Assembly (NCBI GenBank): GCA_905197435.1
Contig: CAJJYX010000058.1
Location: 1 to 16,991, forward strand
DNA from: an uncultured Bacteroides sp.
Lineage (GTDB): Bacteria > Bacteroidota > Bacteroidia > Bacteroidales > Bacteroidaceae
Direction: 5' to 3'
Length of the DNA stretch: 16,991 nt
The translations under genes were made by a program, and so were the position numbers. The notes beneath the pieces are model-generated. The model was not told the DNA's origin. It worked only from the letters and a program-made list of their open reading frames with translations, and searched no databases. Within the stretch, counting starts at the first letter, position 1. The number at the start of each line of letters is the position of its first letter. Shown here in pieces: positions 764 to 16,991 of this stretch.

Positions 764-3406
764 CTAATCGTGCCTTTGCCCTACATGATAATACAACGTA
801 CCACCATAAACCGGAGAGCCACCCTCCGAACAGAATCCGATGCGGGATGCAGGGTAGCGGATGTCCAAAGCACCCAGTTCCCTACCGTCCACAAACAGAT
901 ACAGCTTGTCTGCCCGGCGCACGGCACGGAAATTATAGGAGTCTTTCCACAACTCATGCACACCAATCTTGTAGATATGGCGTTCCAAATCTTCCGCCTC
1001 CTTGTTGATGAAGCGGATGCCCTCTGCCTTCACCGGAGTAAAGGTACAATAATTATAAGCAGGATGCGCGGCTATTCCCTTTTCTTTGCTTTCTATCGGA
1101 TGCCATTCGCCACCATTCAGGTATTCCATGTCGAACTTGCCGAACATATCATTTGCAAATCCGGATTTATTGCCCGCTTCGTGACGGTTCAGATAAAGGG
1201 TATCCAGCCATGTAGGTGCAGCAAAACGATAACCTTTCTCTATGAAATCGGTATACTTCACATCCGGATAGACCGTTTGCAGGCAACCCAATGGGAATTC
1301 CTTCCTCCAAGCGGTCTTCCCTTTCTTCACGGCTGTCACCTCAAGCATACGGGTGATGCCATCGAACTGAGCCTTCACATAGTTATCCTTATCCACATAA
1401 ACCGGATAGCTGCCCGCCATATCCTGCTCCGGCAAGCCGGACAACTGGAAGCTGAATTCATAATCGTTCAGGAAATCGCCCTTCAGCAACTCCTCATTCC
1501 CCGAAAGCTGAAAATGCACATCATCGAAGCCGATGGTATAGGTAGTTCCTTCGAACAAGGCTGCCTTTGTCTCGTCGAATACTCCGGGAACACCCGCCTC
1601 TTCCGCCGGAACGGCCGCTGCAAAGACATGCCTCCCCGGTGCGGGAATCTCATCCAGCCAAACCTTCAGGCAACCGCCGTTGCGCTCGATGCGCAGGTGA
1701 TGGTACACACCCCAACGGAAATCCTCCGGCAGGGCATAGGATTCCTTGCTTTCTTTACCGCCCACAAGCGTACGCAGGTACCAGCTCCGGCTCTTAGCGT
1801 CCAAACCTACGTATGCACAGTTACCGGCATCCTTCCACCAGGCAATGACACCGGCTTCGCCCCCGGTCTTGACTCCCGTCTCGAACAGGTAGGCCACAGA
1901 GGGCTGTACCTGTTGCAACACACCGAACGAAGCGATCTCGCCTTTGCCCGCAAACGTGGGCATCGAAGGTTCGGGATGATAGCCCGCCGTACGGGGACCG
2001 GTGATGCCGTCCACAAACATGGTCTTGTCGAAGAACTGGACACGGTTGATATACTGTCCCCGATGCTCATCGTTCTTGTTTGCCATATAAATCAGCCACC
2101 ATTCAAATCCGTTGGGGCCTCTCAGAATATTGGGCTGGCCGGGAGTCATCAGGATATCGTCGGCAATACCGTCTTTCATGTCGAACAGAGAAACGTCGAA
2201 GAATTGCGAACGTCCCTTATTCGTTTCTACGGCAAGCAGGTTCGTGCCTACCCTCAAGGCAGCACGCAGCTTCTTGTCCAGGTTTACGATGCAATAATCA
2301 CGCCCCTGCTTCTCGTAGACAAGCGTTCCGTTCAGATAAATCCGGGTATCTCCGTCGTGAGCGACACGCAGTGCCAGATTGCCGGTCTCGCTGCCGGCAG
2401 TGAAAGCCTTTCGCAACCATAAGGAAGGGGTAGTCCACAAAGTGCCCAGATGCCGGGTTGTGGAACCTTCCACTTCACGCGACGAAAAGCCGGTCTCCCC
2501 CCTCGCCCAGCCGGAATCATCGTAGGATGTTCCGGTCCAATCGCCTTCCGGCTTGTTCTCCGTATAAGCAAACAACGGCTCATACGTGCGGCCATACCGC
2601 AATAAATCCACATGCTTTTCCTCCAGTTGCGTCTGATTACAACCTACAACCGGATAGCTATATTTATTACCATTTTGAAAACCTAAAGGAGAGTCTGCCT
2701 CGGCAACTCCCAACTGATAATTGCCCCACTCCGTCGAGGTGTGGTTGGCATTGTACATCATATAGTAGCGGTCCCTGTACTTCATGACCCACGGGCCCTC
2801 CGCCACTCTGTTATCCATCGTTTCCCATGTGTCCGGCAATGAGGCGAACAGGCACACCGGTTCGCCGGCAAACTCTGCCGGGTTCTTCATTTTGCGCCCC
2901 CAGATGGTATTTCCATCGGTAAAGCGCACCATATACATGTATAGTTGTCCATTATCATCTCTGAAAACTTTGGGGTCGATACGGTTATCCATCCATGTCT
3001 TCTTGTCCGGCTCTGTATAAGCGCCCAAGACATCTTTGCTCTGCGCATGTACAATGTGAACCGCATGCTTGTCCTTTCCCCAATAATTGACCGACCAGTA
3101 CAAGTGAAAATCCCCGTTCAGATAGAACATGTCATTGGCATGAATCTGGTTGTCTCCGGCTCCGGTACCCTTTGTCCAGTCATTGTCCATGGATACGACA
3201 TGGATAGGTTTGCCCCAATGAACCAAGTCGTCGGATACATAAAAATCCCCGTCCGTGTGGACTCCGCCGATATAGTATTTGCCGTTGTATTTCATTACGC
3301 CGGCATCTGCCACTCCCGGAAGTACCGGATTCTGGATGTTCTGTGCAAACAAGCTGCCGCAGCAGGCAAAAGCGAATGATAACAGTAGTTTTTTGCAGAC
3401 AAGCAT
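764..3406 (-). CDS. Large multidomain exported GH43 glycosidase
   Basis: This 880-residue exported enzyme has a signal sequence at about 1-21 (cleavage near LFA-Q). A lipoprotein reading at the two Cys at 15-16 is possible but weaker. The GH43 propeller starts at about 25. Likely catalytic residues are the base Asp34 (VADAG), the modulator Asp144 (RIDPKVF) and the acid Glu203 (VAEGPW). The propeller appears interrupted by a jelly-roll, carbohydrate-binding-like domain at about 270-412 (motifs SYDDSGW, DGDTRIYLNGTLVYE). It resumes at about 418-475, where the usual GHN/GHG-type motif reads GQPN. A concanavalin-A/LamG-like sandwich follows at about 490-660, then a further beta-rich region to the end containing a discoidin-like stretch. 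The gene follows susD by 84 bp with a hairpin between, so it is probably expressed by readthrough from the susCD operon. Exact substrate unknown; likely an arabinose-, xylose- or galactose-releasing exo-enzyme. Confidence 0.88.
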   Translation of the reverse strand: MLVCKKLLLSFAFACCGSLFAQNIQNPVLPGVADAGVMKYNGKYYIGGVHTDGDFYVSDDLVHWGKPIHVVSMDNDWTKGTGAGDNQIHANDMFYLNGDFHLYWSVNYWGKDKHAVHIVHAQSKDVLGAYTEPDKKTWMDNRIDPKVFRDDNGQLYMYMVRFTDGNTIWGRKMKNPAEFAGEPVCLFASLPDTWETMDNRVAEGPWVMKYRDRYYMMYNANHTSTEWGNYQLGVAEADSPLGFQNGNKYSYPVVGCNQTQLEEKHVDLLRYGRTYEPLFAYTENKPEGDWTGTSYDDSGWARGETGFSSREVEGSTTRHLGTLWTTPSLWLRKAFTAGSETGNLALRVAHDGDTRIYLNGTLVYEKQGRDYCIVNLDKKLRAALRVGTNLLAVETNKGRSQFFDVSLFDMKDGIADDILMTPGQPNILRGPNGFEWWLIYMANKNDEHRGQYINRVQFFDKTMFVDGITGPRTAGYHPEPSMPTFAGKGEIASFGVLQQVQPSVAYLFETGVKTGGEAGVIAWWKDAGNCAYVGLDAKSRSWYLRTLVGGKESKESYALPEDFRWGVYHHLRIERNGGCLKVWLDEIPAPGRHVFAAAVPAEEAGVPGVFDETKAALFEGTTYTIGFDDVHFQLSGNEELLKGDFLNDYEFSFQLSGLPEQDMAGSYPVYVDKDNYVKAQFDGITRMLEVTAVKKGKTAWRKEFPLGCLQTVYPDVKYTDFIEKGYRFAAPTWLDTLYLNRHEAGNKSGFANDMFGKFDMEYLNGGEWHPIESKEKGIAAHPAYNYCTFTPVKAEGIRFINKEAEDLERHIYKIGVHELWKDSYNFRAVRRADKLYLFVDGRELGALDIRYPASRIGFCSEGGSPVYGGTLYYHVGQRHD

Positions 3407-3420
3407 ATGGTATAAGATTT

Positions 3421-3480
3421 AAGAAAGAAAAGGCTATGCCGGAAGTATCCTGAATGAGAACAGGCTTCCGGGCATAGCCT
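3421..3480 (-). terminator. Intercistronic hairpin with T-rich tail after susD
   Basis: Arms 3431-3445 and 3465-3480 form a stem of 15 pairs with one bulged base at 3470 (AGGCTATGCC pairs with GGCATAGCCT, GGAAG with CTTCC) and a loop of 19 bases. On the minus strand it begins 11 bases after the susD stop codon and is followed by TTTTCTTTCTT. It looks like a Rho-independent terminator or attenuator that would lower expression of the GH43 gene relative to susCD. The interrupted T tract suggests partial readthrough. It could also protect the susCD mRNA 3' end. Confidence 0.75.
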
Positions 3481-3490
3481 TCTTTGGTTA

Positions 3491-5068
3491 TTAATAGTTA
3501 GGATTCTGAGTAAGGTGCGCAACACCGCCCACCGTGCTGTTTTCCACCTCATCCCTCGGAATAGGCAGACGTCTGTGCTTGCCGACGATGAAGTTATTGA
3601 AGTCCTTGTCACGGGCTTTCAGCTCATCAATACCAGCTTGGGAATCAAGCAATCCCCAACGCTTCAAGTCGGCCCAGCGCCAACCTTCGAAACAGAGTTC
3701 CAAAGTACGTTCCATCTGCAGACGCTTGATAAAGGCATCCTTAGAGCTCAGGCAGTCTTTCCACCGGCTGTCTTTCAACTTGGCCAGACCGGCACGTTCT
3801 CTTACCTTGTCCACATAAACAGCAGCATCGGCAGGATTGGCTCCTGTTTCAACAAGGCACTCTGCATAGTTCATCAGGATATCCGCATAACGCATGATAC
3901 GGTAGTTGTTACGGGCAAAGTAGTCTTCCGCACTGCGATAGTAAGAGGTATTGTACTTGCGGATATAGCAGTCTTCCGGATCGGTTCCCCAATTGTCATT
4001 CCAATCCGCATTCTCAACGCCATAATATTTCTTCGGTTGGTCGGGGAAGTCCTGTGAGAATCCGCGGTAAAGGATACTGCTGTACAAGCGCAAGTCATTC
4101 TTTCCGTCCACACGTTTCTCTTTCAAGAATTCGTCTACCAGCCAGCGGCGTGCCTTACCGTCTCCCCAACCTATACCGCTCGGAGCATAGAACTGAGTAC
4201 GCTGGAAACCGAATGCCATACTGGCATCATTACCCGTACCACCCTTGTTCTGGTCATCGAACTGAATTTCAAAGATGCCTTCTTTGTTGTTCTCATCCAA
4301 GTCGGTGAAGTTATCTTCGCGGTTGTCGATAAGACCGTACAAAGAGCCCTCTTTGTCAATCAGCCATTGCAGTTGTTCCTTTGCCTTGTCATACTTATGC
4401 TGTTGCATATAGGCCTTGCCCAGCAATGCCTTGGCAGCGCCTTTGGTGGCACGTCCCAGGTTGGCAGCATCCCAAGATTCCGGCAGATACTGCATGGCAA
4501 AAGTCAAATCTTTCTCTATCTGGTCCCATATTTCCTGCTCGGAAGCATCTTCCGGTATATAGGAAGCATCTTTGGGTTCCAACGGCATAGTTCCTTTGTC
4601 CCACAACAGATTCACCTGGAAATACCACAATGCACGCAAGAAAGAAGCCTGTGCCAGTACCTGGTTTTTCGTTGTCTCGTCCATCTCGATGGAAGGAACG
4701 TGGGCCAACACCTGGTTGCAACGGAAAATGCCTACATAGAAATGTTCCCAATGTATGTTGTTGCCTTCGTAAAAATTATAGTTATTATAGAGGAAACGTG
4801 TCCAGTCGCCCAGTTCAATCCAAGGAGAAGAACTCCATCCTTCGTCCGAAGTCAAATCATAGCGGAAAGAGAGCCAACGCATCCAAGTACCTTCCTTATA
4901 GAGGAAGCTATAGCAAGCATTTACACCGGCTGTAGCATCTTCCGGCTTATTCCAGTAAGTATCGTTGGTCACTTCATTGGGGTTATCAATATCCAATAAA
5001 CTCGAACTGCATCCGGTGCACAACGTCAAGGCACCTGCAAGCATTAATCCATAATATATCTTTTTCAT
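3491..5068 (-). CDS. susD-like: SusD/RagB-family outer-membrane glycan-binding lipoprotein
   Basis: The product (525 aa, a normal SusD length) is the surface lipoprotein that caps the SusC channel and binds the oligosaccharide to be imported. The signal ends in a lipobox with Cys20 (LCTGC). The N-terminal region has the typical SusD opening LLDIDNPNEVT and the alpha-helical segment QASFLRALWYFQVNLLW. The C-terminal part has the conserved LERTLELCFEGWRWADLKRW-like region and the HRRLPIPRDEVE ending usual in RagB/SusD proteins. It starts 22 bp after the susC stop, so the two are cotranscribed and translated as a pair. A strong hairpin follows the stop codon. SusD sequence does not reveal the ligand. 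The gene symbol is a family label, not an orthology claim to starch utilisation. Confidence 0.96.
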   Translation of the reverse strand: MKKIYYGLMLAGALTLCTGCSSSLLDIDNPNEVTNDTYWNKPEDATAGVNACYSFLYKEGTWMRWLSFRYDLTSDEGWSSSPWIELGDWTRFLYNNYNFYEGNNIHWEHFYVGIFRCNQVLAHVPSIEMDETTKNQVLAQASFLRALWYFQVNLLWDKGTMPLEPKDASYIPEDASEQEIWDQIEKDLTFAMQYLPESWDAANLGRATKGAAKALLGKAYMQQHKYDKAKEQLQWLIDKEGSLYGLIDNREDNFTDLDENNKEGIFEIQFDDQNKGGTGNDASMAFGFQRTQFYAPSGIGWGDGKARRWLVDEFLKEKRVDGKNDLRLYSSILYRGFSQDFPDQPKKYYGVENADWNDNWGTDPEDCYIRKYNTSYYRSAEDYFARNNYRIMRYADILMNYAECLVETGANPADAAVYVDKVRERAGLAKLKDSRWKDCLSSKDAFIKRLQMERTLELCFEGWRWADLKRWGLLDSQAGIDELKARDKDFNNFIVGKHRRLPIPRDEVENSTVGGVAHLTQNPNY

Positions 5069-5090
5069 AATTTATAAACTGATTTATAAG

Positions 5091-8000
5091 TTAAAAGGTC
5101 AAATCCAATCCAAACATTACCGAACGTGTATTGGGATATGCAAAGTTGTCCGTACCGCTGTTCCAAACGGAATTTGCACCCTTGAAGTCGGGGTCCAGAC
5201 CGGAATATCCGGTGATGGTAATCAAATTGCTACCGGTAGCAAACAAGCGGAGTTTCTCAACTCCCAAATTCTTCAGCCAATCTTGTCTGAAATTATATCC
5301 AATGGAGATATTCTTCATACGGAAGTAAGAACCGTTCTCCAAGAAACGGTCGGCATCGCGGGAGTTGCGGAAGTCACCGTAAATGATACGCGGGGTATTG
5401 GAGTTAGGATTCACCTGGTAAGGTTCTTCACCCTTTTTAAAACGGATATAGTTGGAATTGTCTGCAAACAGACGTCCTTGCCAGCGGGATACGTTGTATA
5501 TCTTATTGCCGAACTGACCGTTCCACATCATACTGAAATCAAAGTTTTTCCACTCTGCATTGAATACCAATGACATTTGCATCTTGGCCCAGGGACTGCC
5601 GCAATAATCACGGTCGGCATCAGTAATCTCTCCGTCATCATTCAAATCGAGATACTTAACATCTCCCAATTGAGGACGTTTTCCCTCAATCATAATGGGC
5701 TTACCCGTAGATGTCACATAATTATCAATCTGCTCTTGTGTCTTGAAGATGCCATCTGTCTTTCTCAAATAGAACTCGGCCAAAGAGCGGCCCGGTTTTG
5801 TCCTTGCCTGACCGGAATCAATATAGTCTCTGTTAGTACCGTCACGGCCCAAGCTCAAGACTTCGTTATCCATGGTAGTCACATTCAGCAAAGCGCTATA
5901 CTTAAAGTCCGAAATCTGGTCTTTCCAACCAAGTGTAAACTCGAAGCCCTTGTTGCGCAAACTGGCGGCATTTTTCCAGGGAGAGCCTCCTTGGTTACCG
6001 GTAGAAATGGCAATCGGAGTTTCTGCCAATACATCACTGGTCTTTGAGTTGTAATACTCTGCGCTGACAGTCAAGCGCTGGTTAAGGAAGCTGGCATCAA
6101 AGCCTACATTCACCGTTTCTTTTGTTTCCCAAACAAGGCCTGCGTTCACAAGCTTCACCTGAGTAGAACCCGGAACAATAGCACCGCCGAATACGGTCAC
6201 AATACTCTGGTTGATAGTTCCGATATAATCCCAATCGCCGATGGAAGAGTTACCAAGACGACCCCAGTTACCTCTGATCTTCAAATCATTGATCCAAGGC
6301 ACATCAAAGAATTCCTCGTTTGAAATTCTCCAGGCACCGGAGAATGAGGGGAAATTACCCCAACGGTTTTCCTTAGCCAGACGGGAAGTACCGTCACGAC
6401 GGAAAGTAGCAGTCAGATAGTATCTATCATCATAAATGTAGTTTGCACGTCCCAAATAAGAAATCATAGCATTCTCGCTGATGCTGTTTGTATTCTGCTG
6501 GTTGCTTTGTCCGGCATTCAATACGGTCAGATAATCACCGTTACCCAACATCGGGAAGTTCAGGCGGGAAGCCCACAAACCTTCCCATTCATGGTGCTGG
6601 TAAGTAGTACCGACCACGGCATCCACATGGTGCTTGCCAAAATCCTTGTTGAAGTTCAACGTGTGCTCAATCAACATGTTGTAGGTATTGTCGCGTGCCT
6701 TCTGGCTTTCCGGATCACGGTGCTCCTGGTTCTGGGTCCAGTTACCTTCTCCACGGAACCATGAGTTCTCATAAAAGTAAAGGTCGACACCACCGTTGAA
6801 TTTATAGGAGAGGAATTCGAAAGGCTTGAACTCCAACCATAAAGAACCATTCAAACGATTCTGGCGAAAATGACGGTATTCCAAATCTTCACGGGCAATC
6901 GGGTTTACACCGAACGTATTGTACTTGCCGGCATCACCATAGCCATATCCTCCCGGATTGTTCTCGTCGTAGATGGGGATGGTAGGCATCATGCGCAAAA
7001 AGTCATTGTAGGTATTGGTCTGGTTCGGGTCTGTGTTTGTAAGTGAATAAGCCAAGTTTTCACCAAAAGAGAACCAGCCTTTTTTACCCTGCGTATTGAC
7101 ACGGAAGCTGTAACGGTCAAAAGTATTTCCATAAGAAACACCATCATTGTTATAGTAACCGGCTGATACAAAATAACTGCCGGAATCGCCACCACCGGAA
7201 AGTGATACGTTGTAGTCCTGCACCAATGCGGTCTTCAACACTTCATCCTGCCAGTTGGTATCATACTGTGAGTGTTTCTGAGTGCTGTTTACAGTGGCAA
7301 TACCATCTTTGATGGCTTCATTATAGGCAATATCATTATACTTGATATATTCCGCCGCATTCATCAAATCAAATTTCGGACTCCATTCCAACGTTTCCTT
7401 TACGCTTACATTCACTTTCATCGGGCCTTTCGTACCCTTCTTGGTAGTAACGATAATCACACCATTGGCTGCACGCGAACCGTAGATGGCAGCAGCAGAA
7501 GCATCCTTCAGAATCTGAATGGACTCTGCATCCGCAGGGTTGAAATCGACACCCGGATCTGTAATCATGCCATCAATCACCCAAAGCGGAGAGTTATTGC
7601 TCAAGGAGCCGACACCACGAATCTCAATGGAGGCATCTTCGCCCGCCCTACCACTACTGCGTACATTGACACCGGTTGCCAAGCCCTGCATCTGGCTGAC
7701 CAGTGTTCCTGCAGCGCTTTTCTTCATTTCCTTGGTATCAACAACGGCGACTGCTCCGGTCAAGTCGGATTTCTTCACGGTCTGATAACCGATGACAACC
7801 ACTTCTTCCAGTGCTTTCGAATCGTCTTTCATCACCACGCGCAAAGCAGTTCCCCTATAGACAACTTCCTGCGTAAGCATACCGATATAAGAGAAAACGA
7901 GTGTACTTCCCTTCTTTCCACTCACTGAGAAATTACCGTCGATATTGGTAATGGCACCCGTGGTAGTACCTTTTACCAATACATTTACGCCTACCAAAGG

Positions 8001-8102
8001 CTCACTATTTGCATCCGTCACCGTTCCCGTCATGGTCACCTCTTGTGAATATGCGGTAGTTGCAAACACAACAAAGAATAAGAATAAGATTTTCTTGATC
8101 AT
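5091..8102 (-). CDS. susC-like: SusC/RagA-family TonB-dependent outer-membrane transporter
   Basis: The transporter is 1003 aa from the ATG at 8102. A GTG-initiated extension to 8159 is open, but the signal peptide MIKKILFLFFVVFATTAYSQ starts at the ATG, so I chose that start. A carboxypeptidase-D-regulatory-like domain (about 22-95, TGTVTDANSEPLVGVNV) is followed by the TonB-box region (LEEVVVIGYQTVKKSDLTGA). The plug has the standard motifs IQILKDASAAAIYGSRAANG and VIIVTTKKG, and a long 22-stranded-barrel region follows. It ends in GLDLTF with the terminal aromatic residue expected of outer-membrane barrels. It imports oligosaccharides with TonB/ExbBD energy, using SusD as the lid. It is the first gene of the susCD transcript, and the HTCS upstream is the probable regulator. 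Confidence 0.97.
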   Translation of the reverse strand: MIKKILFLFFVVFATTAYSQEVTMTGTVTDANSEPLVGVNVLVKGTTTGAITNIDGNFSVSGKKGSTLVFSYIGMLTQEVVYRGTALRVVMKDDSKALEEVVVIGYQTVKKSDLTGAVAVVDTKEMKKSAAGTLVSQMQGLATGVNVRSSGRAGEDASIEIRGVGSLSNNSPLWVIDGMITDPGVDFNPADAESIQILKDASAAAIYGSRAANGVIIVTTKKGTKGPMKVNVSVKETLEWSPKFDLMNAAEYIKYNDIAYNEAIKDGIATVNSTQKHSQYDTNWQDEVLKTALVQDYNVSLSGGGDSGSYFVSAGYYNNDGVSYGNTFDRYSFRVNTQGKKGWFSFGENLAYSLTNTDPNQTNTYNDFLRMMPTIPIYDENNPGGYGYGDAGKYNTFGVNPIAREDLEYRHFRQNRLNGSLWLEFKPFEFLSYKFNGGVDLYFYENSWFRGEGNWTQNQEHRDPESQKARDNTYNMLIEHTLNFNKDFGKHHVDAVVGTTYQHHEWEGLWASRLNFPMLGNGDYLTVLNAGQSNQQNTNSISENAMISYLGRANYIYDDRYYLTATFRRDGTSRLAKENRWGNFPSFSGAWRISNEEFFDVPWINDLKIRGNWGRLGNSSIGDWDYIGTINQSIVTVFGGAIVPGSTQVKLVNAGLVWETKETVNVGFDASFLNQRLTVSAEYYNSKTSDVLAETPIAISTGNQGGSPWKNAASLRNKGFEFTLGWKDQISDFKYSALLNVTTMDNEVLSLGRDGTNRDYIDSGQARTKPGRSLAEFYLRKTDGIFKTQEQIDNYVTSTGKPIMIEGKRPQLGDVKYLDLNDDGEITDADRDYCGSPWAKMQMSLVFNAEWKNFDFSMMWNGQFGNKIYNVSRWQGRLFADNSNYIRFKKGEEPYQVNPNSNTPRIIYGDFRNSRDADRFLENGSYFRMKNISIGYNFRQDWLKNLGVEKLRLFATGSNLITITGYSGLDPDFKGANSVWNSGTDNFAYPNTRSVMFGLDLTF

Positions 8103-8238
8103 TTTTATAGAATTAGATTTTAAAACTATGCGGAAACTAACGCCCGCTTTTAAATACACTGCAGAAAGAAATTAGCCACTTCTGCCAATCATAGAACATT
8201 GATTAGAATCTGTTACGTCATAGGCATAGGAATCATGG

Positions 8239-8260
8239 TATTATAAATAGTATTATAAAT
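8239..8260. repeat. Short A/T direct repeat in the susC leader
   Basis: TATTATAAAT occurs at 8239-8248 and again at 8251-8260, a 12-bp period. It lies just downstream of the predicted susC transcription start and would be in the 5' leader. Its function is unknown; it could be simple A/T-rich sequence. Confidence 0.5.
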
Positions 8261-8273
8261 TGTTGGTTTTCGG

Positions 8274-8335
8274 ATGCAAATATATCTGCATAATGCTAAA
8301 AACAATGCAAATATTGCTTCAATCTATGCAATTAT
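8274..8335. promoter_or_regulatory. Repeated ATGCAAATAT elements, candidate HTCS operator
   Basis: ATGCAAATAT occurs exactly at 8274-8283 and at 8305-8314, and a variant ATGCAATTAT occurs at 8326-8335. Spacings are 31 and 21 bp, about three and two helical turns. The first copy overlaps the -7 element, the second the -33 area, and the third is just upstream. AraC-type regulators often bind direct repeats about two turns apart, so this is a candidate binding site for the neighbouring HTCS. The region is A/T-rich, so chance similarity is possible. Confidence 0.45.
8277..8311 (-). promoter_or_regulatory. Probable susCD promoter
   Basis: On the minus strand TATATTTG at 8284-8277 is a perfect match to the Bacteroides -7 element TAnnTTTG. 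A TTTG lies at 8311-8308 with a 23-bp spacer, a little longer than the usual 19-21. An ATTG at 8306-8303 gives an 18-bp spacer. A start near 8270 would give a leader of about 165 nt before the susC ATG, which is long. The promoter sits between the HTCS terminator and susC, as expected for an HTCS-activated operon. Confidence 0.65.
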
Positions 8336-8341
8336 AAATCC

Positions 8342-8377
8342 AAAAAAATGCCCCTGAGGCGTTTCTCAGGGGCATTT
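8342..8377 (-). terminator. Rho-independent terminator of the HTCS gene
   Basis: Perfect 13-bp arms 8346-8358 and 8365-8377 (AAATGCCCCTGAG / CTCAGGGGCATTT) enclose a 6-base loop. On the minus strand the stem runs directly into seven T residues (8348-8342). It lies 37 bp after the HTCS stop and separates the HTCS transcript from the susCD promoter. Confidence 0.93.
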
Positions 8378-8413
8378 GATTGGATTGTTATATTTAACAG
8401 GCATTCCATGCCA

Positions 8414-11400
8414 TCATTTCACGAAGTCCTTGGGCAGAATGCCGAATTGTTTTTGGAAGCACTTGGTAAAATAGGAAGGAGTATTGAAACCGGTCATGTA
8501 GCAGACCTCATTGATTTTGCACTCCCCTTCTTTCAAAAGCTGTGCTGCTTTCTTCAACCGTTCCAGGCGGATGTAGTCGTTGGGAGTCATGTCCAGTATG
8601 CCCTTTATCTTCCTGTTCAGGCTCGAACGGCTCATGTTCAGCAGGCCTGCCATGTCGTCCAGGCAGAAATCCGGATTCTGCATATTGGCAACCACCACCT
8701 CCTTCAATGTTTTAAGGAAAGATTCATCTGCCTTTGTCATTGCCATACTGCCCGTCTGCACAAAAGGAGAATGGGCGAAAGAAGCCCGCAGCTTCTCACG
8801 GTTGCTCAGCAGATTGGCTACACACACCTTCAGATATTCCACGGAGAAGGGCTTCTCTATATATACGTCAGCGCCCAGCTTCATTCCCTCTATCTTGGCT
8901 TGAAGGGTCGTTTTGGCTGTAAGCAGGATAATCGGTATATGGCTATAGTCGAGCTCGGACTTCAAATGCTCGCACAGCTCCAGCCCATCCATCTCGGGCA
9001 TCATAATGTCTGAAATGACAAGATTTACAGTATGCTCCTTCAATACTTTCAAAGCTTCCACCCCATTCACGGCAGTCAGCACACGATATTCGGAAGAGAG
9101 CTGTTTCACGACAAATGCCTGCATTTCCAGGCTGTCTTCCACCACCAGAAGAGTATACCGGTGCTGTTCCAAGGCGGTACCGGCACCACTTTCCTCGGAG
9201 GGTTCCCCGACCGTTACCGGTTCTTTACGCTCCATGGCCACCGTCTGCTCGTGTTTCAGCGGAAGTGACAGCAGGAAACAGTTGTTCTCCATCGAATCTT
9301 CCATGCACAACGTACCCTCATGGAGTTCGGCCAACGAACGGGCAAGTGCAAGCCCGATACCGGTGCCGGGTACAGAACGCAGCGTACCGGTTTTATACTG
9401 GATGAACGGCTTGAAAATCTCCTCACGCATCTCTGCCGGAATGACAAGACCGTCATTGCATACGGAAAGCAGCAGCCTTTCATCTTCCGCATATAACCTG
9501 ATGCGTATATAGGTCTCCGAATACTTAATCGCATTGGTCAGCAGATTGCTGATAATCTTGGTAAGCCCTTCCCTATCGACCGAAGCATACAGGCTTTCGG
9601 GAGTCTCCATACTCAATGCCAGCCCTCGTTCACGCGCCAAAGGCTTGAAGCGCTTATATGTCTTTTGTAAAAGTTCGGATACATCACATTCCACAAAGTT
9701 CAATTGGAAACCTTGCGTCTCAGTCTTCCGGAAGTCCAGCAACTGGTTCACCAAGTCGAGCAGCCGGTTGGTATTCAGCTCCATGGTCTCCAAATCATCC
9801 CTGATGTCATCCGAAACAGACCGGGAAGCCAGCACATTCTCGAGCGGGCTCTTTATCAGTGTAAGCGGTGTACGTATCTCATGGGCCACATTCGTGAAGA
9901 AATCTATCTTTGCCGCATACAGTTCCCGTTCCTTTTCCCGCTCAAACTTGTCCATGGCCTGTTGGTGCTTCTGCCGGGTCCGTTTTCTGAAATAGATGAT
10001 TACGGCGGCCAGTGAGCATAACGCCAATGCCGTATAGACAGCATACGCCCAGGTGGAAAGATAGAAAGGAGGATGTATGTAGATGTCGAGCACACGTTCC
10101 GTCTCATTCCACTTACCGTCACTGTTGGAGCCTTTTATGCGCAGTGTATAGCTTCCATAAGGAAGGTTTGAATAGTTGATGATAGAATTCCGCCCTACCG
10201 TATACCAGTCACGATCAAAACCTTCCAACTTATATTCAAGGCCATTCATCTCGGGTGCTTGATAGCTTAAGGCTGCAACCTGGAAAGAGAAAGAGTTCTG
10301 GTCGGCATCCAGCTCTATCTCATCCGCATAGGTGATGCTCTTTTCTAAAGGAGAATCCGGACTGCCCGCAGAAAGCCGTTTGTTGAACAGGTAGAAATCC
10401 GTAATCACTACGGGAGGGAGGAAGGTGCTCTCCACAAAGGTTTCCGGGTCAAAGGCTATGAATCCGTTGATATTTCCCAAATAGATGCGCCCTTTCTTGT
10501 CGATGTAGCCGGACTGGAAATTAAACTGATTGCTCAGCAACCCGTTGGCCGTGGTATAGACATGCTTGCTCTCCGTATCGGGGTTGAAGCAGACCAGACC
10601 ATAATTGGAAGTAATCCATAGATTTCCCCGCTTGTCCTCGACCATCTTGTAGATGGTATTGCTCGGGAATCCTTTCGACATGTCATAACGGGTAAAATTA
10701 TCCGTTTCCGGATTGTAGCGGCAGAAGCCCTCACCCAACGTCATGAACCACAGACGCTTCTTGCTATCCTCGTAGATACTGATTACCTTATTGTAGGAAA
10801 GAGAGGTCGAATCGTTCTCATTAGACAGATAATTCCTCCACTGCCGGCTCCTTACATTGTAGCAGAACACTCCATTGGAGAAGGTGGCAAACCACAGATT
10901 CCCGTTGAAGTCCTCCAGGATGTTATAAGTAAACATATTCTTCAGCTGGGGAATCCGGGTAAAATCGTCTGTGGAGCGGTTATACTTCAGCAAACCGGAG
11001 GTAGTACCTATCCACAAATCTCCCGTGATTGTCCTGCAAATGGAAAAAGCATCATTGGCAGTCATGGAGTTCTCACTTTCACCTTTGGCATAGTGCTTCA
11101 CCTGCCTGGTACGGAGGTTCACCCGGTTCAGGCCACCAGAGAACGTACCTACCCACAATTCATCCCCGTCCAGACAGAGGCCATGGATATTCTGAAAAAT
11201 GGCCGGATGCTCAAAGGGCTCTATCTTTCCGTTCTCCGGATTGTAATTGAACAATCCTTTGTCTTCGGTGCCTATCCACAAGGTGCCGTCATTGCTTTCA
11301 CAGATTTCCCGCACACGGCGGCCGAAATATCTGAGATTGTCCCTTGGATAGAACTTCTCGAAATAAGTCCACTGATAAGGACAATAGTTCACTCCGCCGA

Positions 11401-12367
11401 AATAAGAACCTATCCACATACCGTTCTCCTTGTCACAACAGAGCGAATAAATGGCATTGTCCGACAATGCATACGAATCATCCTGGTCGGGAACAGTCAG
11501 ATGGGTAATCTTGTCATTCGCCAGATTATAGATATACAGACCGGACTCTGCGCCCACCCACAGTTCATCATCAGACCTGAACTGCAAAGCCCTCACATAA
11601 GTATCCAGCAGTTTCCGTGTCTTTCCCGTAGTCTGGTTTATCTCAGTCAGCCCGTTCAACGAAGCGATATACACACAGTTATGGGGACCGCTGACCTGCC
11701 AGTTGATAATATCATTCTTGAAAATCTCATTCCCTTCCGCATCCTTGAAAGGTTGCAAAGGAGTTTCAAAGTTATCTTTCGTATAGTAAAGATTATCCGC
11801 GTACAAGGCCAGCCAGCAAGTCTTTCCATTCAGCCAGAAGCGAGTGACGTTGGGCAGCCCCGAATCGTGCAGATGGTTCAGCAGTTCCCTTTCATCCGGT
11901 TTATAGCAGAACAATCCCTGGTTCTCCACAGATATCCAGATATTGCCGTCTTCATCACTTTCAATCATGGTTACAAAATCCCTGATGACACTGCCGGTAT
12001 CACTTGCCTCATTGAAAGCGGTAAAGGAATCCAGGACGGGATCGTAGATAAAGACTCCCCCATCGGTGCCGATCCAGATATTGCCCCGGCGGTCTTCGTA
12101 GAGCGCAGTTATGAAATTCTTGCCCAAACCGGAGTTCTCTTTCTTGTATACACGGAAAGACAATCCGTCATAGCGGTTCAGGCCATCCTTGGTCCCGAAC
12201 CACATAAAGCCTTTCCTATCCTGCAAAATCTGATATACGGTGTTCTGCGAAAGACCATTCCGAATATCCAGCGTCCTGAAATAGTAATGGACAGCATCCT
12301 GCGCACAGACCGGCAACGCCATCCACATGCACAAACCGAGGAAAAGCTTTATAATCGATCGTCTCAT
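8414..12367 (-). CDS. Hybrid two-component system sensor/regulator (HTCS)
   Basis: This one-protein regulator of 1317 aa combines sensor kinase and AraC-type regulator, the usual controller of Bacteroides PULs. I chose the ATG at 12367 because it begins a good signal sequence (cleavage near VCAQ); a GTG-start extension to 12427 would run through a hairpin. The periplasmic part has many regulator-propeller repeats (first GLSQNTVYQILQDRKG, with WFGT/WIGT signatures) making two beta-propellers. A Y_Y_Y domain lies at about 695-765 and one membrane helix at about 771-793. Cytoplasmic domains are HisKA with His829 (NVAHEIRTPL), an ATPase with a GTGIGLALA box, a receiver with phospho-acceptor Asp1120 (SDIMMPEMDG) and conserved EKPFS Lys, and a C-terminal AraC HTH (about 1215-1315). 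All key residues are intact. It likely binds a small glycan product in the periplasm and activates susCD and the enzyme genes. It ends at a strong terminator. Confidence 0.97.
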   Translation of the reverse strand: MRRSIIKLFLGLCMWMALPVCAQDAVHYYFRTLDIRNGLSQNTVYQILQDRKGFMWFGTKDGLNRYDGLSFRVYKKENSGLGKNFITALYEDRRGNIWIGTDGGVFIYDPVLDSFTAFNEASDTGSVIRDFVTMIESDEDGNIWISVENQGLFCYKPDERELLNHLHDSGLPNVTRFWLNGKTCWLALYADNLYYTKDNFETPLQPFKDAEGNEIFKNDIINWQVSGPHNCVYIASLNGLTEINQTTGKTRKLLDTYVRALQFRSDDELWVGAESGLYIYNLANDKITHLTVPDQDDSYALSDNAIYSLCCDKENGMWIGSYFGGVNYCPYQWTYFEKFYPRDNLRYFGRRVREICESNDGTLWIGTEDKGLFNYNPENGKIEPFEHPAIFQNIHGLCLDGDELWVGTFSGGLNRVNLRTRQVKHYAKGESENSMTANDAFSICRTITGDLWIGTTSGLLKYNRSTDDFTRIPQLKNMFTYNILEDFNGNLWFATFSNGVFCYNVRSRQWRNYLSNENDSTSLSYNKVISIYEDSKKRLWFMTLGEGFCRYNPETDNFTRYDMSKGFPSNTIYKMVEDKRGNLWITSNYGLVCFNPDTESKHVYTTANGLLSNQFNFQSGYIDKKGRIYLGNINGFIAFDPETFVESTFLPPVVITDFYLFNKRLSAGSPDSPLEKSITYADEIELDADQNSFSFQVAALSYQAPEMNGLEYKLEGFDRDWYTVGRNSIINYSNLPYGSYTLRIKGSNSDGKWNETERVLDIYIHPPFYLSTWAYAVYTALALCSLAAVIIYFRKRTRQKHQQAMDKFEREKERELYAAKIDFFTNVAHEIRTPLTLIKSPLENVLASRSVSDDIRDDLETMELNTNRLLDLVNQLLDFRKTETQGFQLNFVECDVSELLQKTYKRFKPLARERGLALSMETPESLYASVDREGLTKIISNLLTNAIKYSETYIRIRLYAEDERLLLSVCNDGLVIPAEMREEIFKPFIQYKTGTLRSVPGTGIGLALARSLAELHEGTLCMEDSMENNCFLLSLPLKHEQTVAMERKEPVTVGEPSEESGAGTALEQHRYTLLVVEDSLEMQAFVVKQLSSEYRVLTAVNGVEALKVLKEHTVNLVISDIMMPEMDGLELCEHLKSELDYSHIPIILLTAKTTLQAKIEGMKLGADVYIEKPFSVEYLKVCVANLLSNREKLRASFAHSPFVQTGSMAMTKADESFLKTLKEVVVANMQNPDFCLDDMAGLLNMSRSSLNRKIKGILDMTPNDYIRLERLKKAAQLLKEGECKINEVCYMTGFNTPSYFTKCFQKQFGILPKDFVK

Positions 12368-12397
12368 AACAATACTGTGCTTAAGTCCAATGACAAT

Positions 12398-12432
12398 GAT
12401 GAGTGACCGGCGATTCACGCCAATCACTCATC
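12398..12432. promoter_or_regulatory. Nested hairpin between the GH2 and HTCS genes
   Basis: Outer arms GATGAGTGA (12398-12406) and TCACTCATC (12424-12432) enclose inner arms GGCG (12409-12412) and CGCC (12418-12421) around the loop ATTCA, separated by 2-base internal loops. On the minus strand it starts 20 bases after the GH2 stop and ends about 30 bases before the HTCS ATG. It has no T tract on either side, so it is not a classical terminator. It may be an mRNA processing or stabilising element or an operator. The 85-bp gap has no convincing -7 box, supporting one GH2-HTCS transcript. Confidence 0.6.
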
Positions 12433-12452
12433 CTTATGAAATTATTGCCCTA

Positions 12453-14270
12453 TTATTTTTTCAACGCATTACAAATACGCGTATTTATCTCCTTCACGCG
12501 CTTCTCATCCAGCTTTATCACCTTGCGGTCGTAAGTCATCAAACCGTTTACTTCCACTTCCACATCCGTGGTCTGTGTATAGACGGCTGCCGAGAATCCC
12601 TTAGAGATAAGCTGATATAATATATCGGCATACTTCGCATACTCATCGGTTACTTCCTTGGAAGAGTTGAACTGGACATATCCCCAATTGCGGTTCGGCT
12701 CCCAGATATGGTCTTTCAGGACAAGACCGATGCCACCATACTCACCCAAGACCGTAGCGCGCTGTCCATCATACAAGAACAGTTCCGGTTTAGGATAATG
12801 ATGCAGGTCGAGCATGTCGCCACAAGCATAATGATTACCGCCACTTGCCGGATTCACCAGACGTGTCGGGTCATATTGTTTCGTCCATTCGGCTATCTCC
12901 ACCGTCTTGAACTGTCCCCAGGCCTCATTGAACGGCACCCATGTACCGATGCACGGATAAGAGTAGAGACAATCCATGATTTCCTTCCATTCCTTGCGAT
13001 AGGTTGCTTCAGATTCGGCAGAGCGCTTCCTTTCCGTACCATTGAAATACTGGCGCATTTGCCATTCCGGACCACGGTCACCGCTCGGCATGTCCTGCCA
13101 TACGATGATGCCAAGCCGGTCACAGTGTGTGTACCAACGTGCCGGTTCCACCTTGATGTGCTTACGAATCATATTGAAGCCGAAATCCTTTGTCTTCTGT
13201 ACATCATACAACAGAGCCTCGTCTGTGGGAGCCGTATACAGTCCGTCGGGCCACCATCCCTGGTCGAGCGGTCCGAACTGGAACAAAGCCTTGTTGTTCA
13301 GTTCCAGACGTACGATGCCATCCGCATCACGACGGGTGGAGTACTTACGCATGGCAGCATAGCTGTCTACCTTGTCCACTACCTTGCCTCCGCTTTTCAG
13401 CGTCACTTTCAGTGTATAGAGGAAGGGGGAATCAGGGCTCCAAAGCTTGGCATTCCGGGGCATGGACACTTCCACCGGCTCTGCATTGATACTCTTGCCG
13501 GTGGCTACCAGCTGGCTGCCGTCGTAGACATTCACTTCCACAAAGTCGGAAGGGCATTCCATATTCAGTTCTGCTTTGACAGTCAGCAAGTTACTGTCTA
13601 TATCGGGAGTAATACGGAGGTTTTCGATATGCTTTCCGGCAACCGGTTCCATCCATACCGTCTGCCAGATACCGCTTACGGGAGTATACCAGATACCTTC
13701 CGGATTGCTGACCTGCTTTCCACGGGGTTGAGGACCTTTATCCGTTGGATCCCAGACCTTTACGACCAACCGGTTACTGCCTTTGGCAGAAAGGGCGGCA
13801 GTAATGTCAAAGGAGAACGGAGTAAATCCACCCGTGTGGCTGCCTACTTTCACATCATTCACCCACACGTCCGTTTTCCAGTCGACAGCACCAAAGTGCA
13901 GCAGCACTTGTTTTCCCTTCCAAGCAGAAGGAACCTCGAAAGTGCGCTGATAGACCAACTCCTGGTTTTCATTGATTCTTTTTCCAACTCCGGACAAGGA
14001 AGATTCGATGGCAAAGGGAACAAGTATCTGTCCCTCAAACTCTGCCGGGAGGTGCTCCCCTTTACTTATAACGGCATAATTCCACAGTCCGTTCAAGTTC
14101 TTCCAGTCACTTCGTTCCATGATGGGACGAGGATATTCCGGCAACACATTTGCCGGGTCAATCCGGGATGCCCAGTCCGTTTTGATTTTATCACCTGTCG
14201 GCTTCCATTGCGCCGAACTTCCGATTGCAAACAACGTCAAGAATGACGATATGAGGAAAAGTCTTCTCAT
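12453..14270 (-). CDS. Exported GH2 family glycoside hydrolase (beta-galactosidase/beta-glucuronidase-like)
   Basis: The protein is 605 aa with a signal peptide at 1-20 (cleavage near SSA-Q). It has the GH2 order: sugar-binding jelly-roll (about 45-190, including HFGAVDWKTDVWVNDVKVGSHTGG-type motifs), immunoglobulin-like domain (about 195-310), and TIM barrel to the C-terminus. The likely acid/base is Glu449 in VPFNEAWG and the likely nucleophile Glu510 in VLGEYGG. At about 600 residues it is the short type, without the extra C-terminal domains of LacZ. GH2 includes beta-galactosidases, beta-glucuronidases, beta-mannosidases and other activities, and the specificity is not readable here. It is a retaining exo-enzyme, probably periplasmic. 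It has a consensus promoter 31 bp upstream and is followed by the HTCS gene, so an enzyme and the regulator probably share a transcript. Confidence 0.93.
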   Translation of the reverse strand: MRRLFLISSFLTLFAIGSSAQWKPTGDKIKTDWASRIDPANVLPEYPRPIMERSDWKNLNGLWNYAVISKGEHLPAEFEGQILVPFAIESSLSGVGKRINENQELVYQRTFEVPSAWKGKQVLLHFGAVDWKTDVWVNDVKVGSHTGGFTPFSFDITAALSAKGSNRLVVKVWDPTDKGPQPRGKQVSNPEGIWYTPVSGIWQTVWMEPVAGKHIENLRITPDIDSNLLTVKAELNMECPSDFVEVNVYDGSQLVATGKSINAEPVEVSMPRNAKLWSPDSPFLYTLKVTLKSGGKVVDKVDSYAAMRKYSTRRDADGIVRLELNNKALFQFGPLDQGWWPDGLYTAPTDEALLYDVQKTKDFGFNMIRKHIKVEPARWYTHCDRLGIIVWQDMPSGDRGPEWQMRQYFNGTERKRSAESEATYRKEWKEIMDCLYSYPCIGTWVPFNEAWGQFKTVEIAEWTKQYDPTRLVNPASGGNHYACGDMLDLHHYPKPELFLYDGQRATVLGEYGGIGLVLKDHIWEPNRNWGYVQFNSSKEVTDEYAKYADILYQLISKGFSAAVYTQTTDVEVEVNGLMTYDRKVIKLDEKRVKEINTRICNALKK

Positions 14271-14404: not shown

Positions 14405-14810
14405 TTAAAGACGCCTTTCTATCGGTGTAAATATGTTGAAACGCTTGTTCAACTGGCCTATGGCATAGGCTGCCACCTTTTCGTCCGTTTCACCCTTACC
14501 GCGTCGTGAAACATAGCGTAGAGCATATTCACATTTTCCTGCACGCCGGCCGTTTCATAGTTGTCCGTTGCCCAGCAAGGCGTAAAGCCCACTTCGGCTT
14601 TCAACGTCACCACCGGCTTGCCAATCTGGCCTTTGGGGGTAGTATTCAGAACGGCGCCATTTGCCGCACACGAACCATAAAGCGAACCGGCCGCCGGAAT
14701 GTCTTCCAGTGCATCCGCCTTCACCAAGGAAACCGAACCTGCATAGCTGCTCTTTTTGACCGTGCCACCACAAACAATATGCTCCTAATTCGAGGCATCC
14801 GGATGATAAA
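14405..14810 (-). pseudogene. Decayed SusC-family transporter remnant
   Basis: On the minus strand, pieces of a SusC N-terminal region can be read. From about 14799 the frame gives DASN, then a TAG stop at 14787-14785 where LEE of the TonB-box region would be expected. It continues HIV..GGTVKKSSYAGSVS and VKADALEDIPAAG. It then jumps straight to SLYGSCAANGAVLNTTPKG, so the 70-80 residues that normally separate these plug motifs are deleted. KPVVTLKAEVGFTP and NYETAGVQENVNMLY follow. Near 14495-14508 the frame breaks; the next frame continues GKGETDEKVAAYAIGQLNKR and ends at TAA 14407-14405. The barrel, the signal peptide and any SusD partner are absent. The fragment cannot make a transporter. 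It differs in sequence from the intact SusC at 5091-8102, so it comes from another susC-type gene. Confidence 0.85.
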
Positions 14811-14900
14811 TACGATACCGGATTCGGACGTCTGTGCAGTATCAGAGAAGATATATCCCGATTTTAAGATATGACACATTACGGCATACAACTTTTTTCG

Positions 14901-14908
14901 TAACTTTG
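14901..14908 (+). promoter_or_regulatory. -7 promoter element of mnmG
   Basis: TAACTTTG is a perfect TAnnTTTG match followed by C, 25 bp before the mnmG ATG. A weak TTAC at 14879-14882 sits 18 bp upstream as a poor -33. The leader would be about 20 nt. Confidence 0.8.
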
Positions 14909-14933
14909 CAGGGTTTTAAAATACACTGAACGA

Positions 14934-16808
14934 ATGGAGTTTAAGTATGACGTTATTGTAATCGGTGCCGGACACGCCGGATGCGAGGCCGCCGCCGCCG
15001 CCGCAAACCTGGGTTCAAAGACCTGTCTCATCACAATGGATATGAACAAAATCGGGCAGATGAGTTGTAATCCTGCAGTGGGAGGCATTGCAAAAGGACA
15101 GATAGTACGCGAAATAGATGCCTTGGGAGGATATATGGGATTGGTGACAGACCAAACAGCCATACAGTTCCGTATACTGAACCGCTCCAAAGGTCCCGCC
15201 ATGTGGAGTCCACGCGCACAGTGCGACCGCAATAAATTCATCTGGGCCTGGAGAGAGATTCTGGAGAATATCCCCAACCTGCATATCTGGCAAGACACCG
15301 TGCAGGAAATCCTCGTTGAAAACGGAGAGATTACGGGAGTAGTGACCATGTGGGGGGTAACGTTCCATGCCAAATGCGTGGTGCTCACCGCGGGAACCTT
15401 CCTCAACGGACTGATGCACGTGGGACGCACCATGCTTCCCGGAGGACGTATGGCAGAACCCGCATCCTACCAATTGACCGAATCCATCGCAAAACATGGC
15501 ATCAGCTTCGGACGCATGAAGACGGGAACCCCCGTACGCATAGACGGACGCAGCGTACATTATGAGGATATGGAAATCCAGGACGGAGAATGCGACTTCC
15601 ATAAATTCTCGTTCATGGACACCCGGGTACGCCACCTGAAACAACTTCCCTGCTGGACTTGTTTCACCAATGAAGAGGTACACCGGATTCTGCGGGAGGG
15701 ACTGCCGGATTCTCCCCTTTTCAACGGACAAATCAAAAGCATCGGCCCCCGTTACTGTCCCAGTATAGAAACCAAGATAGTGACCTTCCCCGACAAACCG
15801 CAACACCAGCTTTTTCTGGAGCCTGAAGGAGAAACAACCCAAGAACTCTACTTGAATGGTTTTTCTTCTTCATTGCCCATGGACATCCAGATTGCAGCGC
15901 TGAAAAAGATACCGGCATTCAGAGACCTGGTCATCTATCGTCCCGGTTATGCCATCGAATACGATTTCTTCGACCCTACCCAACTGAAGCATACGCTGGA
16001 AACAAAGAATATAAGAAATCTGTTCTTTGCCGGACAAGTAAACGGAACGACCGGTTACGAAGAAGCTGCCGGGCAAGGAATTATGGCAGGCATCAACGCT
16101 CACATCAATTGCCACGGCGGAGAGCCGTTCACCCTTGCAAGAGACGAAGCATATATCGGCGTTTTAATCGATGATTTGGTAACAAAAGGCGTGGACGAGC
16201 CTTACCGTATGTTTACTTCGCGTGCCGAATACCGCATTCTGCTCCGCATGGATGACGCCGACATGCGCCTCACGGAAAAAGCATGGAAGTTGGGGCTCGC
16301 CAAGGAAGACCGTTACAAGCTGCTGACAGAAAAGCGTGACGCTGTGAACCGGATTATAGACTTCGCACGGAATTATTCGATGAAACCGGCATTAATCAAT
16401 CCGGTATTGGAGCAGCTCGGCACTACCCCGCTTCGACAAGGATGCAAACTGATAGATTTGATAAACCGGCCGCAGGTGACGATTGAGAACATTGCCGAGC
16501 ACGTCAGTTCCTTCAAACACGAACTGGATAAAATATCCGATAGAAAGGAAGAAATTGTAGAAGCTGCAGAGATACTCATCAAGTACGAGGGCTACATCGG
16601 ACGCGAACGGATTATTGCAGACAAGTTGGCAAGACTGGAAAGCATCAAGATAAAAGGAAAGTTTGACTATAATTCCATTCAATCCCTTTCCACCGAAGCA
16701 AGACAGAAGTTGGTAAAGATTGACCCGGAAACCATTGCTCAAGCAAGCCGAATTCCGGGAGTTTCTCCAAGCGATATTAACGTCCTGCTGGTACTTTCGG
16801 GCAGATAA
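14934..16808 (+). CDS. mnmG: tRNA uridine-5-carboxymethylaminomethyl modification enzyme MnmG (GidA)
   Basis: The 624-aa protein is full family length. MnmG works in the cytoplasm with MnmE (MnmE-MnmG complex) to install the (carboxymethyl)aminomethyl group at C5 of the wobble uridine U34 of certain tRNAs, using FAD, NADH and a folate carbon. The Rossmann FAD motif GAGHAG is at residues 11-16, the QMSCNPAVGG motif has Cys45, and the GPRYCPSIE signature has the catalytic-type Cys275. The second family signature region reads GQVNGTTGYEEAAGQG. The C-terminal helical domain ends in RIPGVSPSDINVLLV, typical of the MnmE/tRNA-binding end. The ATG at 14934 follows a good promoter and matches the usual start. 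The run of GCC codons near 14986-15003 is the conserved Ala-rich stretch. It is followed by a parS-like site and apt. Confidence 0.99.
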   Translation: MEFKYDVIVIGAGHAGCEAAAAAANLGSKTCLITMDMNKIGQMSCNPAVGGIAKGQIVREIDALGGYMGLVTDQTAIQFRILNRSKGPAMWSPRAQCDRNKFIWAWREILENIPNLHIWQDTVQEILVENGEITGVVTMWGVTFHAKCVVLTAGTFLNGLMHVGRTMLPGGRMAEPASYQLTESIAKHGISFGRMKTGTPVRIDGRSVHYEDMEIQDGECDFHKFSFMDTRVRHLKQLPCWTCFTNEEVHRILREGLPDSPLFNGQIKSIGPRYCPSIETKIVTFPDKPQHQLFLEPEGETTQELYLNGFSSSLPMDIQIAALKKIPAFRDLVIYRPGYAIEYDFFDPTQLKHTLETKNIRNLFFAGQVNGTTGYEEAAGQGIMAGINAHINCHGGEPFTLARDEAYIGVLIDDLVTKGVDEPYRMFTSRAEYRILLRMDDADMRLTEKAWKLGLAKEDRYKLLTEKRDAVNRIIDFARNYSMKPALINPVLEQLGTTPLRQGCKLIDLINRPQVTIENIAEHVSSFKHELDKISDRKEEIVEAAEILIKYEGYIGRERIIADKLARLESIKIKGKFDYNSIQSLSTEARQKLVKIDPETIAQASRIPGVSPSDINVLLVLSGR

Positions 16809-16814
16809 CGCGAA

Positions 16815-16830
16815 CGTTCCACGTGAAACA
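16815..16830. other. parS: Candidate parS site (ParB/Spo0J binding)
   Basis: CGTTCCACGTGAAACA matches the bacterial parS consensus TGTTNCACGTGAAACA at every position but the first. The right half, GTGAAACA, is perfect. It starts 6 bases after the mnmG stop codon and lies in the 56-bp gap before apt. parS sites nucleate ParB spreading and chromosome-origin segregation and are usually near oriC, and in many bacteria gidA/mnmG is near the origin. Whether this position is origin-proximal here cannot be seen from the window. Confidence 0.75.
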
Positions 16831-16864
16831 AAAGAATTCAATAAACGCATTAAATAAACTGATT

Positions 16865-16991
16865 ATGAGCAAAGAAACACTTGCCAAAAGCATCCGGGAA
16901 ATACCCGACTTCCCCATTCCGGGAATTCTATTCTACGATGTGACCACATTGTTTAAGAACCCTGCCGCCTTGCAGGAGCTATCGGATACCC
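16865..16991 (+). CDS. apt: Adenine phosphoribosyltransferase, N-terminal part
   Basis: The first 42 codons are visible before the right edge. The start MSKETLAKSIREIPDFPIPG followed by ILFYDVTTLFKNP is the characteristic N-terminus of Apt, which makes AMP from adenine and PRPP in purine salvage. The PRPP-binding motif would lie further downstream, outside the window. It starts 56 bp after mnmG on the same strand with no clear TAnnTTTG box between, so cotranscription with mnmG is likely. The parS-like site lies in the gap. Confidence 0.93.
   Translation, partial: MSKETLAKSIREIPDFPIPGILFYDVTTLFKNPAALQELSDT

Follow-up and report, generated by a model that had tools for sequence, protein, structure and literature searches.

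What does a near-perfect copy of parS do in the narrow space between mnmG and apt of an uncultured Bacteroides sp., and does its place beside mnmG have a meaning of its own? The earlier note on this DNA had called attention to a parS-like site with one mismatch in a 56-bp gap, 6 bp after the mnmG stop, and the site is indeed found there, at 16815-16830 of the window, by which we mean the whole stretch of 16,991 nucleotides that was analysed. The features needed for the argument are as follows.

16815..16830, plus strand: putative parS site CGTTCCACGTGAAACA, a predicted nucleation site of ParB, called from its presence, the odds of a chance match and its conservation at the same place
16816..16829, no strand: 14-bp core GTTCCACGTGAAAC, with 0 mismatches to GTTNCACGTGAAAC, the limits of the core following from the numbering of Jalal et al. 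(2020), as far as the available part of that article gives it
14934..16808, plus strand: mnmG (gidA), assigned by TIGR00136, a gene flanked by putative parS sites in most sampled Bacteroidota
16865..16991, plus strand: 5' end of apt (adenine phosphoribosyltransferase), truncated by the end of the window and called from its reading frame

The MnmG of the window scores 791.7 bits against TIGR00136, whose cut-off is 524.85. Its stop codon ends at 16808 and apt starts at 16865; the window stops 161 bp beyond the site, and the 42-aa piece of Apt contained in it gave no Pfam match, with TIGR01090 naming the Apt of B. ihuae at the equivalent position. As for other contents of the window, the minus strand from 767 to 14270 carries a carbohydrate-use cluster with GH43, SusD, TonB-receptor plug (SusC-type), hybrid two-component regulator and GH2 genes, and an 89-aa frame upstream of mnmG (14458-14727, minus strand), for which no Pfam family was found, resembles on visual inspection a degraded fragment of a TonB receptor plug. 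An Rfam scan of the window returned 0 families at the gathering threshold, and a promoter and terminator consensus scan of 14800-16991 returned five promoter-like and five terminator-like sites, 0 of them in the mnmG-apt gap.

Compared with the 16-base consensus TGTTNCACGTGAAACA (Jalal et al., 2020; PMC7383237), CGTTCCACGTGAAACA has a single mismatch, C for T at base 1, the outermost one, and two mismatches if it is read on the opposite strand. Besides these two readings of the same site, the window holds only one match at up to 3 mismatches, at 2172-2187 with 3 mismatches; shuffled sequences give 0.52 expected matches at this level, and 3 were found in the window. Matches at one mismatch or fewer are expected 0.0016 times per window from its own base composition, which agrees with the estimate in the earlier note of one chance match per several hundred such windows, and 3.8e-6 times in the mnmG-apt gap. 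The available part of Jalal et al. (2020; PMC7383237) also describes a 14-bp parS with a guanine as position 1. We take this 14-bp parS, from its numbering, to correspond to GTTTCACGTGAAAC, in which case base 1 of the 16-mer would fall outside, and the 14 bp of the window agree with GTTTCACGTGAAAC save at the free N base.

Is the site kept in related genomes? Contigs were scanned with the MnmG of the window, and the best 80 of 586 confirmed stretches, whose titles are mostly Bacteroides, Parabacteroides, Prevotella and kin, form the nearest set; a site was counted when the palindrome TGTTYCACGTGRAACA occurred with at most one mismatch within 300 bp of mnmG. It is present at 73 of these 80 loci, downstream of mnmG in all 73 and additionally upstream in one, and the count becomes 77/80 if two mismatches are allowed and 55/80 if none is. 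Thus the conservation in relatives that the earlier note had proposed to look for is found. The identical 16-mer CGTTCCACGTGAAACA occurs in Mediterranea massiliensis (L001) and Candidatus Bacteroides intestinavium (L008). Seven of the best 80 loci are without a one-mismatch site within 300 bp of mnmG (L020, L032, L045, L047, L056, L066 and L070), and three are without even a two-mismatch site at this distance. L020, L045, L066 and L070 have two-mismatch sites near mnmG, at L032 and L056 perfect palindromes occur downstream of the gene but at a distance of about 3.5 kb or more, and at L047 no site was found within the stretch of sequence examined.

A second site beyond apt is also common in the nearest set (L022-L079, many of them Prevotella-type), where 25 sites of the best 80 of 586 loci lie 500-750 bp downstream of mnmG. 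Farther away, B. fragilis (L337:4253-4268), B. ihuae (L338:9531-9546) and M. massiliensis (L339:11613-11628) have a second parS-like site, an imperfect one, at about 9-12 kb on the downstream side of mnmG. In the first two of these it is the same variant, TGTGTCACGTGAAACA, adjoining a similar-looking short secreted-protein gene, and that of B. fragilis had no NCBIfam match.

Conservation is concentrated in the 16 bp. When information was calculated for each column from 84 sites of the nearest set and 201 sites of the phylum set described below, the core columns mostly reached 1.76-2.0 bits and the two free Y/R columns about 0.9-1.1 bits, values that are partly circular because the sites were chosen by the motif. 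Not circular are the columns outside the motif, which mostly have 0.04-0.45 bit, with the A/T-rich ones adjacent to the motif in the nearest set at 0.59-0.87 bit. Base 1 carries 1.01 bits in the nearest set and 0.85 in the phylum set, and in the former it is T in 65, C in 11 and A in 8 of the 84 sites. The one mismatch counted in the earlier note thus falls on a base that, among the 16, has the weakest constraint or close to it.

How far does this arrangement extend? MnmG was found at E 1e-50 in 197 of 198 genomes of the same GTDB phylum, with identities of 48-62% among the matches listed, B. fragilis apart. The phylum set consists of 109 loci, 29 from the MnmG search (minus B. fragilis) and 80 fetched in addition, taken down the score list and not at random, and their relatedness is known as a shared GTDB phylum, no kinship being given by the search. 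At 91 of these 109 more distant loci TGTTYCACGTGRAACA occurs with at most one mismatch within 300 bp of mnmG (98/109 at up to two mismatches, 71/109 at none). The sites lie upstream of mnmG at 59 loci, downstream at 64 and on both sides at 32, so that the single mnmG-side site of the earlier note stands, but as one part of a wider pattern. Eighteen of the 109 are without a one-mismatch site within 300 bp, 11 of them without even a two-mismatch one. Forty distinct shuffled palindromes of the same make-up were each found at 0/109 loci of the phylum set and at most at 1/80 of the nearest set. Among the 189 loci overall, upstream sequence is shorter than 300 bp in 3 and downstream sequence in none.

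Whole genomes give the same picture. When 61 genomes were scanned for the pattern, 58 had a match at one mismatch or fewer, the remaining three being G047, G049 and G067, and the reversed pattern matched at most once per strand in every genome. For 27 genomes, B. fragilis included, all sites and the place of mnmG are listed (eight genomes without a listed mnmG place, one with incomplete sites and those not listed were left out), and of the 71 sites in these 27 genomes 55 are no more than 5 kb from mnmG, against about 0.26 expected if the sites were evenly spread over about 3.3 Mb. At least one site is within 5 kb of mnmG in 26 of the 27 genomes, and all sites are there in 16. Other sites thus cluster with that beside mnmG, as the earlier note had suggested checking.

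Could the palindrome instead be an operator, bound by a transcription factor of apt or mnmG and resembling parS by coincidence? The neighbourhood of the window invites this thought: apt follows mnmG directly at 66 of the best 80 of 586 loci, 61 of these 66 with the site, and the site lies just upstream of apt at 61 of the 73 site-bearing nearest loci. The remaining 12 of the 73, however, have no recognised apt beside mnmG, and in the phylum set apt was not found just downstream of mnmG at any of the 109 loci, as judged by one Bacteroides query at E 1e-8 which a distant Apt could escape, yet 91 retain the site upstream, downstream or on both sides. The distance between the site and the genes varies as well, and at two loci, L004 and L012, the mnmG frame ends within the site. 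Since the gene neighbours vary, the pattern fits a site that is read as DNA and not an operator of apt. An operator would also leave unexplained why the site of B. fragilis is near the skew origin, as described below, and we regard this explanation as very unlikely.

What happens in genomes in which mnmG has no such site? Fourteen genomes of the phylum in which mnmG has no strong site (G047, which is outside the 109, and 13 of the 18 misses) were searched together with L032 and L056, and all 16 encode ParB. In G149 two one-mismatch sites lie about 0.6 and 1.8 kb away from mnmG, G014 combines two two-mismatch sites adjoining mnmG with two one-mismatch sites far off, G067 has a two-mismatch site adjoining mnmG, and G103 has scattered two-mismatch matches only; the matches listed for the exceptions do not include G135, G025 and G191. 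From six other exception genomes having a site at one mismatch or fewer, the distant sites were fetched. In five of them (L331-L335, that is, G174, G190, G170, G076 and G049) the sites lie in or beside thrC, the gene for threonine synthase, and in four of these five GGTTCCACGTGGAACA is in frame within thrC as Gly-Ser-Thr-Trp-Asn; in the sixth, G178, the site is elsewhere. Thus, of the genomes in which mnmG is without its sites, several carry sites in other places, and ParB is retained.

As a separate matter, thrC was considered as a general second anchor of the phylum. This idea was rejected, since among the best 30 thrC loci of the 87 genomes with a match, out of 118 searched, 2/30 carry a site, and in the two genomes concerned mnmG has none.

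Where do these sites lie with respect to the replication origin? In the complete chromosome of B. fragilis (5,196,111 bp), GC skew was sampled as 40 blocks, each 20 kb long, and changes its sign from minus to plus near 4.49 Mb. The sites with one mismatch or fewer are at 4,597,162, in the mnmG-apt gap, at 4,587,252, and at the distant position 1,108,337, and the first of these is about 107 kb from the skew origin, with the second site 10 kb away from the first. The earlier note had proposed mapping against both the skew origin and dnaA, and the two landmarks gave different answers: the site is near the former, but dnaA, at 3,643,897, is about 0.85 Mb away from the skew switch, and parB, at 178,385, is about 0.88 Mb away. 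In the draft genome of P. gordonii, skew turns between about 2.33 and 2.42 Mb on a 4.48-Mb scaffold, and perfect sites at 2,250,157 (mnmG) and 2,579,852 bracket the switch, the former at a distance of roughly 80-170 kb from it. The sign of skew flips across mnmG in G019 (5 samples), and the samples around mnmG are noisy in G130 and G041; closeness to the origin was thus seen in relatives of the window's organism, namely B. fragilis, P. gordonii and G019. dnaA is more than 0.4 Mb from mnmG, in contig coordinates, in six of seven further genomes, G207 being the exception with one of its two dnaA genes about 66 kb from mnmG. A search of the flanks of mnmG (median 3 kb each side) at the 189 loci, made with two ParB queries at E 1e-10, gave no ParB gene. 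In relatives, dnaA and the ParB gene are usually away from the mnmG-parS locus.

The protein partner is present in the relatives. ParB was found above the cut-off of TIGR00180 in all 38 genomes searched (12/12 and 26/26), and the frame with the best match was taken, one per genome, with a GERR or AGHRR motif required, which 38/38 passed. If residues are numbered by alignment to Caulobacter ParB, position 173 is Arg in 38/38, position 201 is Gly in 34/38 and Ala in 4/38, and position 204 is Arg in 37 and Lys in one. In the available part of Jalal et al. (2020; PMC7383237), Gly201 is described as absolutely conserved in ParB. An unusual DNA-binding region was seen in the ParB of G190 (L313), with GAAK for GHAR and LTILST for LRLLKL, and this genome nonetheless carries two TGTTCCACGTGGAACA sites.

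These residues bear on another explanation, that the site is an NBS bound by Noc and not a parS. ParB and Noc are related, and NBS has the same length and architecture, the two kinds of sites differing at two positions per half-site (Jalal et al., 2020; PMC7383237, available part), but at these discriminating positions CGTTCCACGTGAAACA has the parS-type bases, G at base 2 and A at base 7, where NBS has A and C, and ParB of the relatives has Arg173 (38/38) and Gly201 (34/38), not Gln and Arg, so that a Noc-type site is hardly conceivable. A chance match, of which a large genome occasionally yields one, such as that at 1,108,337 in B. fragilis, is just as implausible, being already contradicted by the same-place site at 73 of the best 80 of 586 loci against at most 1/80 for each of the 40 control palindromes, besides the low expectation per window.

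That the site is a parS is thus well supported, about as surely as sequence can show, and the reading of the earlier note is borne out by the conservation, skew-origin closeness and clustering in relatives. Very probably, CGTTCCACGTGAAACA is a chromosomal parS belonging to a small Bacteroidota cluster anchored at mnmG. By analogy with the known ParABS system, ParB of the window's organism would recognise this palindrome and load on it, would spread from there to the neighbouring DNA, and together with ParA would carry the origin region into the daughter cells. The anchoring at mnmG may be very old within Bacteroidota, as judged from its spread among the sampled members of this phylum. Like the chromosomal parS of the ParABS type in Bacillus subtilis and Caulobacter, the site is the same 16-bp palindrome, intergenic in the window, with the sites of relatives clustered near the skew origin and parS-contact residues in ParB of nearly all relatives tested. 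Unlike that type, it is anchored at mnmG, has C and not T as its outermost base, and comes from a group in which no ParB gene was found in the examined flanks of mnmG and in which, in B. fragilis, dnaA and parB are far from the skew origin.

As an element, parS is of a kind already known, and what seems new is a centromere tied to mnmG in most sampled Bacteroidota. Titles and abstract openings of the papers listed in literature searches yielded nothing on parS anchored to mnmG in Bacteroidota, but Bacteroidetes sites may already be contained in the tables of the older parS survey of Livny et al. from 2007. The earlier note calls parS in Bacteroides little discussed; it has been examined before, in strains of a gut consortium that include Bacteroides caecimuris, where up to 2 mismatches to the same consensus were allowed (Lamy-Besnier et al., 2023; PMC10197239). 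According to the available part of that study, most parS sites cluster where the secondary diagonal of Hi-C maps crosses, the origin does not always coincide with dnaA, and no homologue of known bacterial condensins was seen in the Bacteroidetes studied. Origins were called there from parS clusters and GC skew, and because of this they are not independent of parS. Unlike the present analysis, the available text contains no phylum-wide comparison, and "mnmG" and "gidA" occur 0 times in it, as also in PMC13342612; a term search of PMC6315104 gave no match. Judging from B. fragilis, we infer that the B. caecimuris sites of Lamy-Besnier et al. (2023; PMC10197239) are probably mnmG sites.

What then marks the origin domain in this phylum? 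It might be that the fixed landmark in Bacteroidota is the parS cluster at mnmG, a tRNA-modification gene, and not dnaA or parAB, of which dnaA and parB would have moved, that this cluster organises the chromosome in the lack of a recognised Smc-ScpAB, and that it is rebuilt elsewhere when it moves, for example inside thrC; we hold this as a tentative proposal, with slightly less than an even chance of being right. What does ParB-parS recruit in Bacteroides, where Lamy-Besnier et al. (2023; PMC10197239) saw no homologue of the known bacterial condensins? Why does the centromere remain beside mnmG? Both questions are testable. In practice, dnaA can mislead origin calls in Bacteroidota, and for this phylum, which abounds in the human gut, mnmG together with parS offers a simple sequence landmark of the centromere and the origin domain.
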